64,000 nucleotides of DNA from Chitinibacter fontanus. GTDB lineage: Bacteria > Pseudomonadota > Gammaproteobacteria > Burkholderiales > Chitinibacteraceae. The position numbers and the translations under genes are program-made. Below, piece by piece: positions 9,961 to 16,663 of this stretch; the first letter of the stretch is position 1, and each line of letters starts with the position of its first letter. The stretch spans positions 806,001 to 870,000 of the forward strand of contig NZ_CP058952.1 of NCBI RefSeq assembly GCF_013423785.1, written 5' to 3'. The notes beneath the pieces are model-generated. The model saw nothing but the letters and a program-made list of their open reading frames with translations, did not search any database and was not told the DNA's origin.

Positions 9961-11535
9961 ATGGTCGTCAAAAAATTCTTCGGTGCCACCACTCGTGAAG
10001 CCCTCAGGCAAGTTCGTGATGAACTCGGCCCGGACGCGCTCATCCTTTCCAACCGCCAAGTGGCGGGCGGAGGCATTGAAATTATGGCTGTGGCCGATGC
10101 CGATGTGGCCGCACTCACCAATGTACAAACGGTAGCCACCCCGCCCAAGCCATCGCCACGTGCGGCACAAAATGGCGCACGGCTGATTAACTCAGCCCAA
10201 AGCGAAGCACCAAGCCCCAATATTGCCAAAGCCTTGGCGCGCTCCTACGCTATTCCTGATGATGAACAAGAGCCAACTACCGCTGATATTGGCGTAGAGG
10301 CGCCATCCGTTCTGCGTAGCAATCGCCAATCGCGGCCAGCCGAAACGCGTTTTGAGGGGCAACGTGATGAAATTTCTCTCACGCAATTTGCCAGCCAGAG
10401 AACGCCAGATTATTTAACTGAACGCCCTGAAGCACGTACTACAGAGCCCAGCCGCACGCCACCACCACGTCGCGCGCCGCCCGTAGTCGAGCCGCAACAT
10501 AAAGCTTTGCCGACCTTCAGCTTTGAAGACGAGCCAGCAGCCAAGCCAGCCCAGCCAGCGGTCGATCACGAAGCAATGCAGGATATTGCGCGCGAAATCC
10601 GCATGCTGCGCGGTCTATTGGAAAGCCAAATGGCGGGTATGGCGTGGGGCGAACTATCGAAACATGCGCCCGAGAAACTCGAAATTTTGCGTCAATTACT
10701 GGGCGCAGGTTTTTGCGCCGCACTGTCACGTCAACTGATCGACAAAATGCCCGGCGGGATGAGCCTAGATACAGGAGTGAAATGGGTAAAAGCCGCATTG
10801 GCGCACAATCTGCCCGCCACCGGCGCCAGCGATGATCTGGTCGCACGCGGTGGCGTGTATGCGCTGATTGGCCCAACCGGCGTTGGTAAAACCACGACGG
10901 TGGCCAAACTTGCCGCGCGCGCGGCGCTGGCCTATGGCCCGCAATCGGTCGCGCTGCTGACCACCGACAGCTATCGGATTGGCGCGCATGATCAGTTGCG
11001 TATTTATGGCCGCATTCTGGGTGTACCCGTCCACGATGTGAAAGACGAAACCGATTTGCAGCTGACCTTGGGTGAGCTGAGCGATCGCCATCTGGTGCTG
11101 ATCGACACCGTCGGCATGGGCCAGCGCGATCAGCGTATTGGTGAGCAGCTCGCGATGCTCGGCCACGATAACGTCGGCACCATTTTGCTGCTGGCGGCCA
11201 ACGCGCAAGCGGGCACGCTTGACGATGTGGCGCGCCGTTATCGCAACCATCATTTACTCGGCTGCATTCTGACCAAGCTCGACGAAACTGTGGCACTCGG
11301 CGGCTGCCTTGATGTGGCGATCCGACATAAACTGCCGCTGCAATTTGTCACCAATGGCCAGCGTGTACCAGAAGATTTGCATCGCGCCAATTTGGCTTAT
11401 TTACTGGATCGCGCGTTTAAAACTCAGCAAGATCATAGCGTTTTCCAGCTCCAACGCGACGAATATCCGCTGTATATGAGTACCCAAGACACCCCAACCG
11501 ACTTCACCCTTAGCCTAGGTGGTGCGCGTGCCTAA
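9961..11535 (+). CDS. flhF: flagellar SRP-like GTPase FlhF
   Basis: SRP-type GTPase that places the flagellum, usually at the cell pole. The 524-residue protein has the FlhF N-terminal segment (KKFFGATTREALRQVRDELG), a long variable Pro-rich basic region (about 60-195), an N domain, and a G domain with the P-loop GPTGVGKTT at about 304-312, the TTDSYRIGAHDQL motif and ILTKLDE. It overlaps flhG by 17 bp. FlhF plus FlhG suggests polar flagellation. Confidence 0.95.
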   Translation: MVVKKFFGATTREALRQVRDELGPDALILSNRQVAGGGIEIMAVADADVAALTNVQTVATPPKPSPRAAQNGARLINSAQSEAPSPNIAKALARSYAIPDDEQEPTTADIGVEAPSVLRSNRQSRPAETRFEGQRDEISLTQFASQRTPDYLTERPEARTTEPSRTPPPRRAPPVVEPQHKALPTFSFEDEPAAKPAQPAVDHEAMQDIAREIRMLRGLLESQMAGMAWGELSKHAPEKLEILRQLLGAGFCAALSRQLIDKMPGGMSLDTGVKWVKAALAHNLPATGASDDLVARGGVYALIGPTGVGKTTTVAKLAARAALAYGPQSVALLTTDSYRIGAHDQLRIYGRILGVPVHDVKDETDLQLTLGELSDRHLVLIDTVGMGQRDQRIGEQLAMLGHDNVGTILLLAANAQAGTLDDVARRYRNHHLLGCILTKLDETVALGGCLDVAIRHKLPLQFVTNGQRVPEDLHRANLAYLLDRAFKTQQDHSVFQLQRDEYPLYMSTQDTPTDFTLSLGGARA

Positions 11536-12421
11536 ACGCTGGCAAGACCAAGCCGCTGGCTTGCGTCAAATGGTCAGCCCGACGCATTGCCGCAGCATTA
11601 GCCTGTGCGGTGGCCGCGGCGACTCGGGTACGACCACGCTGGTGATTAATCTGGCTGCCGCGCTCAGTGAGCGCCAGCGGGAAGTGATGATTGTGGATGA
11701 GTTCACCGGTAGCCAAAATGTCAGCTCCCGGCTGCATCTAAGCCACGGCTTCACATTGGAACACGTACTGCGCCACGAAGCGACGCTGGCCGATAGCCTG
11801 ATTGAAACCCCGCAGGGCTTTCAGCTGCTCTCGATTGCTGGCAAACCGCAAATCATTGCCCACCTGAACGACGCCGAACAGCACTGGCTGGCCGCCGAAT
11901 TTGAAGCCATCACCGAATACGTTGATTATTTATTACTCGACACTCGCCCGATGGGCAGCAATGGGATTCCGAGCTTAAGTCTGGCCGCCGATGACGTGCT
12001 CGTCGTGTTATCCAACCGCGCCGAATCGCTCACCGATGCCTACGCCACGATCAAGCAGCTGGCGCAAGAATACGCACGGCGCGATTTTCGCGTACTGGTC
12101 AATCGCGTCGAAAGTCTGGGCGAGGCAATGGCACTATTTGATCGCCTGCGCAGCGTATGTCAGCAGTTTCTGGGGGCAAGCCTGGGATTAAAGCTAGTGG
12201 GCTATGTCCCCGAAGACACCAAACTAAATCGTGCGACACGCTTAGGCAAAACGGTACTAGAAGCTTTCCCCGATACTGAGGCCAGTATGGCGCTACGTCA
12301 ATTAGCAGATGTGATCTTGCGGTGGATACCCCCTAAAGTGGCCCACGATTCTGCTGGGCACTTTGTGCATCGCTTGGTTGAATCATCCCGTTTATTACAC
12401 GAAAGGTTGCACCATGGCTGA
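11519..12421 (+). CDS. flhG: FlhG (FleN/YlxH)-like MinD-family protein with degenerate Walker A
   Basis: MinD-like partner of FlhF that limits flagellar number. The 300-residue protein keeps the N-terminal FlhF-activating motif DQAxxLR (DQAAGLR, residues 10-16). The deviant Walker A, normally KGGxGKT, reads GRGDSGTTT at 32-40: both the signature lysine (Arg33) and the P-loop lysine (Thr38) are replaced. A Walker-B-like LLLDTRPMG remains. It may no longer hydrolyse ATP. The start is a GTG at 11519; GTGs at 11522 and 11528 are alternatives. It overlaps flhF by 17 bp and the MlaE-like gene by 8 bp. Confidence 0.85.
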   Translation: MVRVPKRWQDQAAGLRQMVSPTHCRSISLCGGRGDSGTTTLVINLAAALSERQREVMIVDEFTGSQNVSSRLHLSHGFTLEHVLRHEATLADSLIETPQGFQLLSIAGKPQIIAHLNDAEQHWLAAEFEAITEYVDYLLLDTRPMGSNGIPSLSLAADDVLVVLSNRAESLTDAYATIKQLAQEYARRDFRVLVNRVESLGEAMALFDRLRSVCQQFLGASLGLKLVGYVPEDTKLNRATRLGKTVLEAFPDTEASMALRQLADVILRWIPPKVAHDSAGHFVHRLVESSRLLHERLHHG

Positions 12422-13496
12422 AGCAGCGTTGCGCCTTGAGCCCGTAGACGGTGGCTACCAACTCATTGGCGATTTAACGCTGAGCGCAATTGCGCCCATC
12501 TGGCAACAGAGCCGCCAAATAAATTGGCAGCAACAAACGGTCGACTTGCGCCAAATTACGCATTGCGACGGTGCTGGGGCGGCATTGTTATTCGAATTAA
12601 GTCAGGCCGGGGCTCAGTTGCTGAACCTCAACGCCGAAACCCAACGCTTACTCACCGCGCTAGAGCCAGAACAAGCACTAATTGTGGCCCCGCGCGCGCC
12701 GAGCATGCGTCCAATCAGTCAGCTGGGGCAATTAACCCGCAGCATGCTTGATGATTTTGTGGCCCAGATTGCTTTTATCGGTGAAGCGGCCAGTACCATC
12801 GTTGATGCAATCGCTAAACCGCATCAGGTCCGCTGGCGCGAGTTTTTGCGCCAGTGCGAATTAACCGGTGCCAACGCCCTACCGATTATTAGCCTGATTT
12901 CATTTTTGCTGGGCATTATTTTGGCATTTCAATCGGCAATTCCAATGCGGCAATTTGGTGCGGAAATGTTTGTGGCCAATTTACTGGGTTTATCACTGAT
13001 CCGTGAGCTTGGCCCTCTGATTACCGCCATTGTACTTGCTGGCCGCTCTGGCGCAGCATTTGCCGCGGAGATTGGCACAATGAAAGTCAATGAAGAAATC
13101 AACGCCCTCGTCACATTCGGCTATAAACCTATGCATTTTCTAGTGCTGCCACGATTGATGGCGGGCTTGTTAATGTTGCCATTGCTGGCGATCTGGTCCG
13201 AAGTGATTGGCATGTTGGGCGGCGCACTGGTTATGCAGGGCTTTGGCATTCCGCTGGCCACATTCTGGACGCAAGTTGATACCCAAGTGGATGCGATTGA
13301 TTTTTTCAGTGGCCTACTCAAAGCGGCGGCATTTGGCTTGGTTGTGGCATCGGTGGGCTGCTTCCGCGGGCTAGGCACCGGTACCGGCGCCAGCGCAGTA
13401 GGTGCTTCGACCACCCGCGCAGTAGTCAATATTTTGGTGTTATTAGTGATCACCGACGGTATTTTTGCTGTCGTTTACTACCATCTGGGGTGGTAA
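12414..13496 (+). CDS. MlaE-family ABC permease with N-terminal STAS domain
   Basis: Permease of an MCE-type phospholipid transporter in the inner membrane. The 360-residue protein has an N-terminal STAS-like domain (about 1-95; VDLRQITHCDGAGAALLFEL) fused to an MlaE permease with about five membrane segments and the conserved stretch LIRELGPLITAIVLAGRSGAAFAAEIG. In E. coli the STAS protein MlaB is separate; the fused form is a known variant. The ATG at 12414 lies 7 nt before the flhG stop, so it is probably coupled to flhG. Confidence 0.92.
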   Translation: MAEAALRLEPVDGGYQLIGDLTLSAIAPIWQQSRQINWQQQTVDLRQITHCDGAGAALLFELSQAGAQLLNLNAETQRLLTALEPEQALIVAPRAPSMRPISQLGQLTRSMLDDFVAQIAFIGEAASTIVDAIAKPHQVRWREFLRQCELTGANALPIISLISFLLGIILAFQSAIPMRQFGAEMFVANLLGLSLIRELGPLITAIVLAGRSGAAFAAEIGTMKVNEEINALVTFGYKPMHFLVLPRLMAGLLMLPLLAIWSEVIGMLGGALVMQGFGIPLATFWTQVDTQVDAIDFFSGLLKAAAFGLVVASVGCFRGLGTGTGASAVGASTTRAVVNILVLLVITDGIFAVVYYHLGW

Positions 13497-13498
13497 AC

Positions 13499-14257
13499 AT
13501 GCAGACGGTGATCGAGGTACAACATCTATATTGCGGTTGGGGGCAGCGCTCAATTCTAGAAGACGTGAGCTTTAGCGTGAATCGGGGCGAAGTGATTACC
13601 ATTCTAGGCGGCTCAGGCTGTGGTAAGTCCACGCTGCTTAAGCATTTGATCGGCCTTTATCCACCACAAGCAGGATCTATACGGATAGTGGGTAATGAGC
13701 TAGTACAAGCATCCAGCAAGGATCGCGAAGCAATACTGCGCAAAATTGGCGTGATGTACCAATCAGGCGCGCTATTTGGCTCGATGAGTATTCTAAATAA
13801 CATCACATTGCCCTTGAGTAGTTTTAGCCATTTAGACAGCGCAGCAATTGATACGCTGGCCAGACTTAAATTACGGCTTGTTGGGCTGGAAGAGTTTGCC
13901 GATTTTTACCCCAACGAACTATCTGGCGGCATGCAAAAGCGTGCGGCAATTGCCCGTGCCATGGCACTTGATCCACAAATTTTATTTTTGGATGAGCCAT
14001 CCGCAGGCCTAGACCCCATTACCTCAGCCGAGCTCGATCGCCTGATTCGCCGTCTGGCAGAAACCCAAGGGGTCACCATCATGGTGGTGACACATGAATT
14101 AGCCAGTATTGCTGCCATTGCAGATCGCGCAATTATGCTCGATAAAAGTATCAAAGGGATTTTAGCCATCGACACTCCCGCAGCACTCGCCCAATCAACA
14201 GATAGGCGGGTTGCGGGCTTTTTTAATGCACAGCGGCCATCGCACGCCGCAGTTTAA
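13499..14257 (+). CDS. MlaF-like ABC transporter ATP-binding protein
   Basis: ATPase that drives the MCE lipid transporter. The 252-residue protein has Walker A GGSGCGKST (about 38-46), the Q-loop MYQSGALF typical of MlaF, the signature LSGGMQKR and Walker B ILFLDEPSAGLDP. The ATG at 13499 follows the permease stop by 2 bp. Gene order permease, ATPase, MCE, lipoprotein supports the assignment. Confidence 0.94.
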   Translation: MQTVIEVQHLYCGWGQRSILEDVSFSVNRGEVITILGGSGCGKSTLLKHLIGLYPPQAGSIRIVGNELVQASSKDREAILRKIGVMYQSGALFGSMSILNNITLPLSSFSHLDSAAIDTLARLKLRLVGLEEFADFYPNELSGGMQKRAAIARAMALDPQILFLDEPSAGLDPITSAELDRLIRRLAETQGVTIMVVTHELASIAAIADRAIMLDKSIKGILAIDTPAALAQSTDRRVAGFFNAQRPSHAAV

Positions 14258-14265
14258 GAAGCCAC

Positions 14266-15309
14266 ATGGAACAACAATCGAATTTTCGACTGGGCGTGTT
14301 TATTCTGCTTGCGCTGCTATTGGGTGCCGCCATATTAATTGGCATCGGTAGCGGACGCTGGTTGCACAAAAAGGTGACGCTCGAAACCTATTTTAATGAG
14401 TCGGTACGCGGGCTCGATATTGGCTCCAAAGTACGCTATCGCGGGGTCGCGATTGGCGAGGTGAGCGCGATTACATTTACCTACACGCGCTACGAGAGCG
14501 ATATACCCAATTCCCAGCGCCAACAATACGTTTTGGTTGAGGCTCAGCTGGATAACAATATCTTGGGGCAATCGAGCGGAAATAGCAGTGCACAAGCCGA
14601 ACTGGATCGCGAAATTGCCAAGGGTTTGCGCGTAAAATTATCGCCGCAAGGGCTAACAGGAACTAGCTATCTCGAAATTGATTATGAAGCAGGCCAAGGC
14701 CAACCGCTGCCTTTCAGCTGGAAGCCCGAGCATTTATATATTCCCTCAACCAACAGTACCGTCAATCAACTCCTAGGCAGTGCTCAGGATTTAATGGCCA
14801 AATTGCAGCGAGTTGATGTGGATAAAACCATCAATCTACTCAATCAAACCTTAAACACACTCAATACCAAGCTCGATGAGCTGCCCGTGAAAAGCATAGC
14901 GAGTGAAACAAATCGGCTGCTACATACGGCTAACCAGCTGCCCTTAGTTCAAATTGCCAGCGAAAGCAGCCAGCTTCTGAGTGAAGTACGAGAAAGCAAT
15001 CAAGCGCTCAAAGCACTGCTTGAGCAACCCGCACTCCACAGCGCCACCCATGATCTGGCAAGTGCGGCCAACTCTGCCAAAGTGCTCCTCGCCAACCCAG
15101 CCTTAGCTAGCGCGGTGCAAAGATTGGATCAAATTACATTGCGTCTGGACCATTTAAGCGCGCAGCGTGAAGGCGATGTACAACAAATTATTGATAATTT
15201 ATCGAGCACCAGCAGCAATCTTAAAGCCCTGAGCGAAAAAGCCAATCAGCGTCCAAGTAGCTTGCTGTTCTCCGATCACCCCAAACCTTATAGCCCGCCC
15301 AAACCATGA
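14266..15309 (+). CDS. MlaD-family MCE protein
   Basis: Periplasmic substrate-binding subunit of the lipid transporter, anchored in the inner membrane. The 347-residue protein has one membrane helix at about 9-29, an MCE domain at about 38-130 (VRGLDIGSKVRYRGVAIGEV, then GLTGTSYLEI) and a long C-terminal helical tail of about 190 residues. It is longer than E. coli MlaD (about 180), closer to the PqiB/LetB style of extended helices but with one MCE domain. It overlaps the next gene by 4 bp. Confidence 0.92.
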   Translation: MEQQSNFRLGVFILLALLLGAAILIGIGSGRWLHKKVTLETYFNESVRGLDIGSKVRYRGVAIGEVSAITFTYTRYESDIPNSQRQQYVLVEAQLDNNILGQSSGNSSAQAELDREIAKGLRVKLSPQGLTGTSYLEIDYEAGQGQPLPFSWKPEHLYIPSTNSTVNQLLGSAQDLMAKLQRVDVDKTINLLNQTLNTLNTKLDELPVKSIASETNRLLHTANQLPLVQIASESSQLLSEVRESNQALKALLEQPALHSATHDLASAANSAKVLLANPALASAVQRLDQITLRLDHLSAQREGDVQQIIDNLSSTSSNLKALSEKANQRPSSLLFSDHPKPYSPPKP

Positions 15310-15884
15310 AAAAACTGCTGTTATTACTATGCGTACTTGTTTGTTCGGCCTGCAGCACAACACCGCCAGATCGACAGGATTTCCTACTTACCGCGCAGCG
15401 TGCAGGTACAAATCAGTCAGTGCGCTTCGGCGCTTTGCAAGTCAATGAATTACGCAGCAGTGCACCATTTCGCGATTTGGCACTGATTTATCGCGAAAGC
15501 CCTCAGCGCTATATTGCCGACCCGTACCACGGTTTTTTGGCAACTCCCAGCAGTCAGATCACCCAAAACACACGTCGCTGGTTAAGCCAAAGCGGGCTGT
15601 TTAGCCAAGTCTATCCTTCCGGCAGTAGCCTGATTGCCCCTTGGCAGCTCGAAGGAGAATTGCTTGCCGTCTATATTGATGTGAGCGAGCCAAATTCACC
15701 TAAGGCAGTAATTCAAGCTCAGTTTTTACTCAGCCATCAACAGCAGTCCCGCAGTTTTGAACTTAGCGCGGCACAAGCACTGCCGGATGCAACCCCCGAA
15801 ACCGCGGCGCAAGGCCTGAGTGTGGCGCTGGAAAGCCTATTAAAGCAATTAGAACAACATCTGACTTCGTCAAACTTCGATTAG
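15306..15884 (+). CDS. ABC-type transport auxiliary lipoprotein (PqiC-like)
   Basis: Outer-membrane-directed lipoprotein that completes MCE transporters of this type. The 192-residue protein has a lipoprotein signal with lipobox LVCSAC (Cys at about 16), followed by the family-like region with VRFGALQVNELRSSAPFRDLALIYRESPQRYIADPYHGFL. Start and MCE stop overlap as ATGA. It is the last gene of the lipid operon; fliA follows after 38 bp. Confidence 0.88.
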   Translation: MKKLLLLLCVLVCSACSTTPPDRQDFLLTAQRAGTNQSVRFGALQVNELRSSAPFRDLALIYRESPQRYIADPYHGFLATPSSQITQNTRRWLSQSGLFSQVYPSGSSLIAPWQLEGELLAVYIDVSEPNSPKAVIQAQFLLSHQQQSRSFELSAAQALPDATPETAAQGLSVALESLLKQLEQHLTSSNFD

Positions 15885-15922: not shown

Positions 15923-16663
15923 ATGTCAGCCAATCGCGCCCTATCTCTATACCGCAGTACGCAAAGCACTTGTGAGGAAGACCGTGTGAAACAGCACGCG
16001 CCACTTGTGCGGAAAATTGCGTATCACATGATGAGCAAACTGCCTGCCAGTGTGGAGGTGGATGATCTGATTCAAGTCGGCTTAATGGGCTTGATGGAAG
16101 CGGCGCGTAATTTTGATGTTGATGCAGGCGTACAGTTTGAAACTTTTGCCAGCCAGCGCATTCGAGGCGCCATGCTCGACGAGCTGCGCAACGCCGATTG
16201 GCTGCCACGGCAAGCACGCAAAAATATGCGTGAAATCGAAAAAGCCATTGTGCAACTTGAACAGCAATTGAGTCGTCACCCCAGCGAAGGCGAAGTCGCA
16301 CAAGCCTTGCAAATTCCACTCGATGAATATCAATCTATGCTCGGCGAAGCTCGTGGGCATCAGCTACTGCATTATGAAGACTTTGAAGTCGATGGCGAAA
16401 ATGATCAACTGGATCAGTACGCAGCCGATCATAATGCCAACCCAATTGATATTCTGAGCGATGATGCATTTCGCGGCCATTTAATCGAGGCCATTAAGCT
16501 ATTGCCGGAACGCGAGCAGTTGCTGATGGCTCTGTATTATGATGAAGAACTCAATTTGAAAGAAATTGGCGCGGTATTGGGCGTTTCGGAGTCGCGCGTT
16601 TGTCAGCTTCACACTCAAGCCGTTGCACGCCTGCGCGGCAAACTTAAAGACTGGCTTGTGTAA
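15923..16663 (+). CDS. fliA: flagellar sigma factor FliA (sigma-28)
   Basis: Directs RNA polymerase to late flagellar and chemotaxis promoters. The 246-residue protein contains sigma region 2 (HMMSKLPASVEVDDLIQVGL, FETFASQRIRGAMLDELRNADW), region 3 and region 4 (LPEREQLLMALYYDEELNLKEIG...SRVCQLHTQAVARL). Normal length. It usually follows flhG directly; here the lipid-transport operon lies between them. Its stop abuts the motC start. Confidence 0.96.
   Translation: MSANRALSLYRSTQSTCEEDRVKQHAPLVRKIAYHMMSKLPASVEVDDLIQVGLMGLMEAARNFDVDAGVQFETFASQRIRGAMLDELRNADWLPRQARKNMREIEKAIVQLEQQLSRHPSEGEVAQALQIPLDEYQSMLGEARGHQLLHYEDFEVDGENDQLDQYAADHNANPIDILSDDAFRGHLIEAIKLLPEREQLLMALYYDEELNLKEIGAVLGVSESRVCQLHTQAVARLRGKLKDWLV

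Follow-up and report, generated by a model that had tools for sequence, protein, structure and literature searches.

The FlhG of Chitinibacter fontanus lacks the key residues of its ATP site but keeps the helix that activates FlhF

Introduction

What can FlhG, a protein that helps bacteria to position and number their flagella, still do once the residues with which it handles ATP are gone? The question is raised by the flhG gene in a 64,000-nucleotide stretch of the Chitinibacter fontanus genome (contig NZ_CP058952.1, positions 806,001 to 870,000; hereafter the window, with coordinates counted from its first letter), in which an earlier note had seen a P-loop without lysines beside an intact FlhF-activating motif and had proposed an ATP-independent regulator. 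In a review of December 2025, written by workers on this system, FlhG figures as an ATPase that dimerises in an ATP-dependent way, and knowledge is said to be much scantier outside monotrichous species (PMC12826062). From sequence comparisons, we conclude that the window protein is quite probably an orthologous FlhG turned pseudo-ATPase, whose kept job would be stimulation of the FlhF GTPase, probably while docked on proteins of the C-ring.

Results

An orthologous FlhG with a degenerate ATP site

The window carries flagellar genes in the order flhB, flhA, flhF, flhG, the first two of which we take from their sequences to be flhB and flhA. The flhF gene (9961..11535, forward strand, as are all features below) encodes a signal recognition particle (SRP)-type GTPase, the partner of flhG, and scores 274 bits against TIGR03499 (cut-off 174). 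It is overlapped by 17 nucleotides by the flhG open reading frame (ORF; 11519..12421), which begins with GTG and encodes 300 residues. Translation probably begins at another GTG in the same frame, at 11528, because relatives align from there and AGGTGG (11517..11522), a putative Shine-Dalgarno sequence, lies 5 nucleotides upstream; the overlap would then be 8 nucleotides. In phmmer searches FleN chains rank first (E 1.7e-38 to 2.5e-38), followed by Geobacillus FlhG, and a structure model (predicted local distance difference test, pLDDT, 89.2) matches 4rz2_B (FlhG) and 7ejw_B (FleN) alike, both with Z 30.1. Position downstream of flhF, a MinD/SIMIBI fold closest to FlhG/FleN and the DQAxxLR motif identify the gene as an FlhG orthologue.

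The ATP site of this protein is degenerate at each of its three motifs. The P-loop GRGDSGTT (residues 32-39; 11612..11635) carries R33 for the signature lysine and T38 for the Walker A lysine, and the replacement of both, as originally described, is borne out by the gap-free alignment of G31-G-R33-G-D-S-G-T38-T-T to GGKGGVGKTN of FleN. Two further losses were not in that description. Switch I reads D60-E61-F62 (residues 60-62; 11696..11704), so that the second Asp of D-x-D is lost, F62 standing for D60 of Geobacillus FlhG; switch II reads DTRPM (residues 141-145; 11939..11953) where FleN has DTAAG, with M145 for Gly. The residues that define a deviant Walker A site, namely the signature and Walker A lysines and the second Asp of switch I, are thus all absent. 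That the lysines matter in known FlhG agrees with published mutants: Geobacillus FlhG K36A binds no ATP and no longer interacts with GpsB (PMC12327844), and in Vibrio mutation of Walker A abolishes ATPase activity, polar localisation and braking (PMC7226244).

Two trivial explanations were considered. A displaced intact P-loop was sought in the window protein and not found: its sole GK[ST] is in RLGKTV (GKT, residues 243-245), which has no P-loop glycines before it and directly follows a predicted helix (234-241) in the structure model. A sequencing slip is unlikely because the genome is a single contig and each of the five further genomes available for the genus also reads R and T; both lysines are missing in all 43 genomes of the family.

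Conservation of the FlhF-activating helix and of the FliY site

The enhancer, or activator, motif DQAAGLR (residues 10-16; 11546..11566) is intact, as the earlier note had it. Its five defining positions are the most conserved columns across 95 genera of the betaproteobacterial set described below (beta), in the order L15, Q11, R16, D10, A12, and are followed by Y175 and K179. Conversely, among the 45 columns that hardly vary in gammaproteobacterial rows (gamma), variability in beta is highest at D60, followed by the switch II Gly, a P-loop Gly, K31 and K36. The structure model places a helix at the motif (residues 12-18), with low confidence (pLDDT 56-60 for the block). In Bacillus, stimulation of FlhF depends critically on the Gln of DQAxxLR, and a Q8A mutant resembles an flhG deletion (PMC12327844).

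The second half of the protein retains a further set of residues. Geobacillus FlhG binds FliY through K177, R207 and F215 in a nucleotide-free manner, whereas its binding of GpsB depends on ATP (PMC12327844, which prints the arginine as both 277 and R207; we took R207). In an alignment numbered with an offset of 8, as deduced from K36 and D60, all three have equivalents in the window FlhG: K179 (12053..12055), with K in all 43 family rows and in 101 of the 109 beta rows outside the family; R209 (12143..12145), with R in all 43 family rows; and F217 (12167..12169), with F or Y in all 43 family rows and in 82 of the 109 outside it.

The loss extends through the family and the order

The earlier note had asked whether the loss is clade-wide, and alignment indicates that it is far wider than one family. 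FlhG was recovered from all 43 genomes of the window's family, and no row has either lysine, D60 or the switch II Gly, whereas DQA[A/S/T]GLR is present in every one. The signature position holds R in 41 rows and L in 2, the Walker position T in 26, A in 11 and S in 6, and the D60 position F in 37, Y in 3 and H in 3. One locus from a metagenome-assembled genome (L032; GKPRVGQT), the only one confirmed by contig scan, stands outside all counts. In the partner FlhF, the G1, G3 and G4 patterns are present in all 43 proteins of the family.

We sampled the order through 399 genomes drawn evenly; judged from the nearest named relatives, it appears to correspond to the betaproteobacteria. Matches to the family FlhG profile at 1e-25 occur in 198 of these genomes, and 251 have an FlhF above the curated cut-off. 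Profile matches and genes downstream of flhF yielded another 109 FlhG rows, which represent 84 genera and 40 families. Only 4 keep both lysines and 10 keep D60; none keeps all three, and K31, K36 and D60 are all absent in 64. GK[ST] occurs in the P-loop region of 25. By a strict count, both P-loop glycines and both lysines are gone in 23 rows; by a looser one, GxxxxGx[STG] is missing in 51, although many of these have lost one glycine only and three keep GKT.

These counts depend on several decisions about individual loci. Twelve duplicates (L046-L057), a MinD-like match (L002) and a 10-base region (L127) were dropped beforehand. At 23 of 214 loci no FlhG was recognised directly after flhF; 13 were restored by their best FlhG match and 10 were left out (L177, L186, L205, L206, L210, L211, L212, L223, L224, L226); three of these ten have an altered motif, and one has no FlhG. 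L177 is canonical but adjoins no flhF, and the TIGR03499 flhF of its genome lies elsewhere, followed by the degenerate L221. Two loci with both lysines and D-x-D, L123 and L124, were excluded from the 109 because they lack DQAxxLR, lie beside a divergent FlhF (29-31% identity) and group inside gamma; the genome of L123 has no TIGR03499 match at 1e-25, and that of L124 has one under the cut-off. These canonical MinD-like FlhG beside divergent FlhF perhaps belong to imported second flagellar systems.

Some loci are unusual in other respects. At L206, L221, L223 and L224 (family f49) and L207 (f22) the motif has become HQG..L or HQASGL, with the co-catalytic Gln kept and D and R gone. At L186 (f24) flhF is followed by a fliA-like gene, with no FlhG found between them. 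Very long FlhF frames, of about 770-1010 residues, occur at L205, L210, L212 and L226 (f31, f4, f49).

Of 12 plasmid matches, 9 were read. Broken P-loops are found on plasmids of three Cupriavidus (including C. metallidurans CH34), of Burkholderia glumae and of Paraburkholderia, with DQAxxLR in 4 of these 5 beta records, and KGGxGK[ST] on those of Aeromonas, Aquicella, Bacillus and Acetoanaerobium. With rows of family f31, the FlhG of Cupriavidus and Burkholderia share 72-82% identity.

One genus has deleted the ATPase half

In genus g30 of family f20 (19 genomes, L230-L248), the short frame from L191, used as query, matches 18 of 19 genomes, the nineteenth giving no match. A short form is present in 17, measuring 85-111 residues from the D of DQ; this number includes L237, which was kept out of the short-form alignment for a flagged in-frame TGA, and excludes L247, a full-length FlhG with SGHEACGRTT at the P-loop. 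Of the 19 loci, 18 have FlhF upstream and 18 have a FliA-like frame downstream. Among the matches listed for the 399-genome sample, the only short frames come from two genomes of g30 (133 residues); the next shortest has 230.

This mini-FlhG is a natural deletion of the ATPase half. It has no P-loop, switch I or switch II, and DQAxxLR is joined directly to a beta-alpha-beta-alpha-beta half corresponding to about residues 155-231 of the window protein, the home of the FliY-binding equivalents. Invariant in 17 sequences from 16 genomes are DQA.GLRRL, Y30, K34 (equivalent to K179), F62 and Y72 (equivalent to F217).

Gammaproteobacterial FlhG keeps the ATP site

As a control we aligned 49 gamma loci, found with a FleN query, together with FleN itself. 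Every one of the 50 rows retains the two lysines, both Asp of switch I and the Gly of switch II; nine of ten site columns are invariant, and the tenth is T in 47 and S in 3. Judged by eye, and with adjacency checked for part only, a FleN-like match is present in 115 of 116 gamma genomes with flhF, the exception (G648) having flhF near a contig end. The opposite dissociation also occurs here: among 45 flhF-adjacent gamma rows (from L129-L178), 17 are without DQxxxL[RK], both lysines being kept.

A FleQ domain was found in 26 of 30 gamma genomes versus 4 of 47 beta genomes, these four matching weakly (E 8e-7 to 2.2e-6). A tie of the ATP-site loss to FlhDC is not general: FlhC is present in 20 of 47 beta genomes and in none of 7 from the window's family.

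Selection and order of losses

The window FlhG and mini-FlhG are both under purifying selection. For the window gene, the ratio of nonsynonymous to synonymous substitution rates (dN/dS) is 0.03-0.12 in six comparisons, five within the genus and one with a different genus of the family, silent sites being saturated in a seventh; for mini-FlhG it is 0.03-0.19 over nine pairs. Over the 13 codons around the P-loop, three of the five same-genus comparisons reveal no amino acid change and the remaining two a single one each, despite many silent changes.

A quick LG+G4 tree, computed with the P-loop and switch I columns removed, places 94 beta rows in one group (support 100), separate from 13 gamma rows and from L123 and L124, which pair with a gamma row (support 97). 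It requires at least 13 changes of the Walker lysine, a figure that is rough because 49 of 106 inner branches are open and in which loss and gain are not separable. Several basal beta rows read SGRxGVGKT with DEQ or DEN. Because these keep GKT with an altered signature lysine and switch I, the switch I Asp and the signature lysine may have been lost first, and the Walker lysine later and repeatedly.

Other features of the locus

The window FlhG ends in a helix in the model (residues 279-299; 12353..12415), possibly a membrane-targeting one; the hydrophobic moment of residues 279-297 is 0.47, which is moderate, and the best 11-mer of the tail stands at rank 0.92 among the protein's own 11-mers. 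The next flagellar gene is a fliA-like sigma factor (15923..16663; Pfam sigma-70 regions 2, 3 and 4). Between it and flhG, at 12417-15884, lies an Mla-type lipid transport set comprising an MlaE permease, an ABC ATPase, MlaD and a lipoprotein-like ORF, the last without a Pfam match. Unlike the window, several other loci have a FliA-like frame directly 3' of flhG.

Discussion

Beta FlhG keep the parts for nucleotide-independent jobs and lose those for nucleotide-dependent ones. For the window FlhG we infer no ATP hydrolysis, intact FlhF stimulation and docking on the C-ring; the loss of hydrolysis is likely, and a loss of ATP binding is very likely in those relatives with an unrecognisable P-loop (23 of 109) or no ATPase half. 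In the mechanism that we propose, the N-terminal helix would put the Gln of DQAxxLR into the active site of the FlhF dimer, as is known from other FlhG, and the former MinD domain would be retained as a scaffold. The second half, around K179, R209 and F217, would probably tie FlhF stimulation to C-ring assembly, on the model of Geobacillus FlhG, which needs no nucleotide to bind FliY, a protein of the C-ring. The cycle in which ATP drives FlhG from a monomer in the cytosol to a dimer at the membrane and back would have been given up, and with it the brake on FleQ/FlrA transcription.

Several observations weigh against this reading. For the main set, ORFs were chosen with a bonus for the DQ motif, which inflates its conservation there; a recount was therefore made downstream of flhF alone, on 50 loci leaning to families with a weak or no profile match. 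It reached 45 loci: DQxxxL[RK] is present in 39, 2 of which have GK[ST], while 5 keep the Gln within an altered motif and 1 has nothing. The equivalent of R207 is not conserved outside the family, being N in 59 and R in 32 of the 109 other beta rows, and the broken P-loop on the Paraburkholderia plasmid record (L250) comes without DQxxxL[RK] in the frame read. Vibrio D60A is nearly normal, so loss of the switch I Asp alone need not alter function (PMC7226244). ATP binding may survive in the 25 beta rows that keep GK[ST]. The contrast in FleQ is strong and fits a lost ATP job of beta FlhG but is confounded by ancestry, and conservation of the altered P-loop within the window's genus is as compatible with a retained ligand as with a scaffold.

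This last point leads to the strongest alternative, possible although on balance doubtful: that hydrolysis was lost while ATP is held lastingly, without the lysines, as a structural element of a stable sandwich dimer that still meets the membrane. The loop GRGDSGTT is conserved across the family, 41 of the 43 rows having R and all 43 having T, A or S at the Walker position, and the N, P and D columns, which we take to be adenine-side contacts, are kept in 43 of 43 rows. The precedent is BcsQ, a MinD relative whose P-loop RGGVGTT has the same R...T (PMC9178275, Table 1) and whose E. coli K-12 sequence reads RGGVGTT and, at switch I, DAC, with Cys at the D60 position; yet BcsQ is seen as an ATP-bound sandwich dimer (PMC11470070). 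By analogy, the window FlhG may bind ATP without hydrolysing it, as a static ligand. The proposal of an ATP-independent regulator therefore stands in part: the ATPase residues are lost, the FlhF-activating motif is kept and the gene is under purifying selection, but ATP-independence does not follow, because BcsQ with the same R...T P-loop is ATP-bound. Against the alternative, the BcsQ dimer is stabilised by BcsR (PMC11470070), and no such partner is known for the window FlhG; moreover, ATP binding must be dispensable for FlhG in parts of the group, since the P-loop glycines and lysines are gone in 23 of 109 rows and mini-FlhG is without the entire site.

Ordinary decay, with FlhG dying out in the group and the ATP site drifting ahead of gene loss, is improbable. 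It could draw on L186, where a fliA-like gene directly follows flhF, and on the repeated changes of the Walker lysine, but the low dN/dS of both the window gene and mini-FlhG argues against it, as does the fact that the DQAxxLR positions and K179 still rank with the best-conserved columns even as the ATP site erodes. Similarly improbable is a transfer of the ATP switch to a canonical ParA/MinD paralogue with degenerate FlhG as its partner: canonical MinD-like proteins do lie beside divergent FlhF in some genomes of the order (L123, L124), but these lack DQAxxLR and pair with a gamma row, and in the window genome no second FlhG was found, the one other match being 26% identical and about 757 kb from flhG (C1:1574491).

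If the pseudo-ATPase reading is extended to the group, and here we lean only slightly in favour, betaproteobacteria would have turned a two-nucleotide FlhF/FlhG switch into a GTP-only circuit. FlhG would be a C-ring-docked cofactor of FlhF, cut down in one genus to the enhancer helix and docking half of about 100 residues, and the ATP cycle would be of use only to lineages that also have FleQ/FlrA or membrane partners that depend on ATP. Which half of FlhG matters in this group is, it seems, shown by evolution itself. With FlhG of a large bacterial group mostly unable to work as an ATP-dependent dimer, and with a natural minimal version at hand, the purpose of the ATP cycle becomes directly testable; the label 'MinD/ParA family' on such genes should not be read as ATPase. 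Among the titles, openings of abstracts and passages covered, from a collection without most subscription journals and bioRxiv, we found no description of a beta-wide ATP-site loss.

Comparison with known systems

The window FlhG shares with FlhG/FleN/YlxH (4rz2, 4rz3, 5j1j, 7ejw) the MinD fold, with Z 27 to 30, and the position of its gene directly after flhF; unlike them, it has neither lysine in its P-loop and has also lost the Asp of switch I and the Gly of switch II. It has in common with Bacillus FlhG the DQAxxLR helix and with Geobacillus FlhG the equivalents of the FliY site. Pseudomonas FleN is its mirror image, with the ATP site intact and DQAxxLR lost (PMC12713375). The R...T of the P-loop and the lack of Asp at the D60 position liken it to BcsQ, from which it differs in partners and gene context; it scores 54.8 bits against TIGR03371, the BcsQ equivalog, under the cut-off of 157.85, and BLASTP confines the similarity to a 30-residue stretch. 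A functional analogy is offered by the SRP RNA in Ffh-FtsY, a cofactor that stimulates an SRP-GTPase dimer and whose protein-based analogue FlhG is called in the review (PMC12826062); FlhG, unlike that RNA, is a protein with a MinD-derived body.

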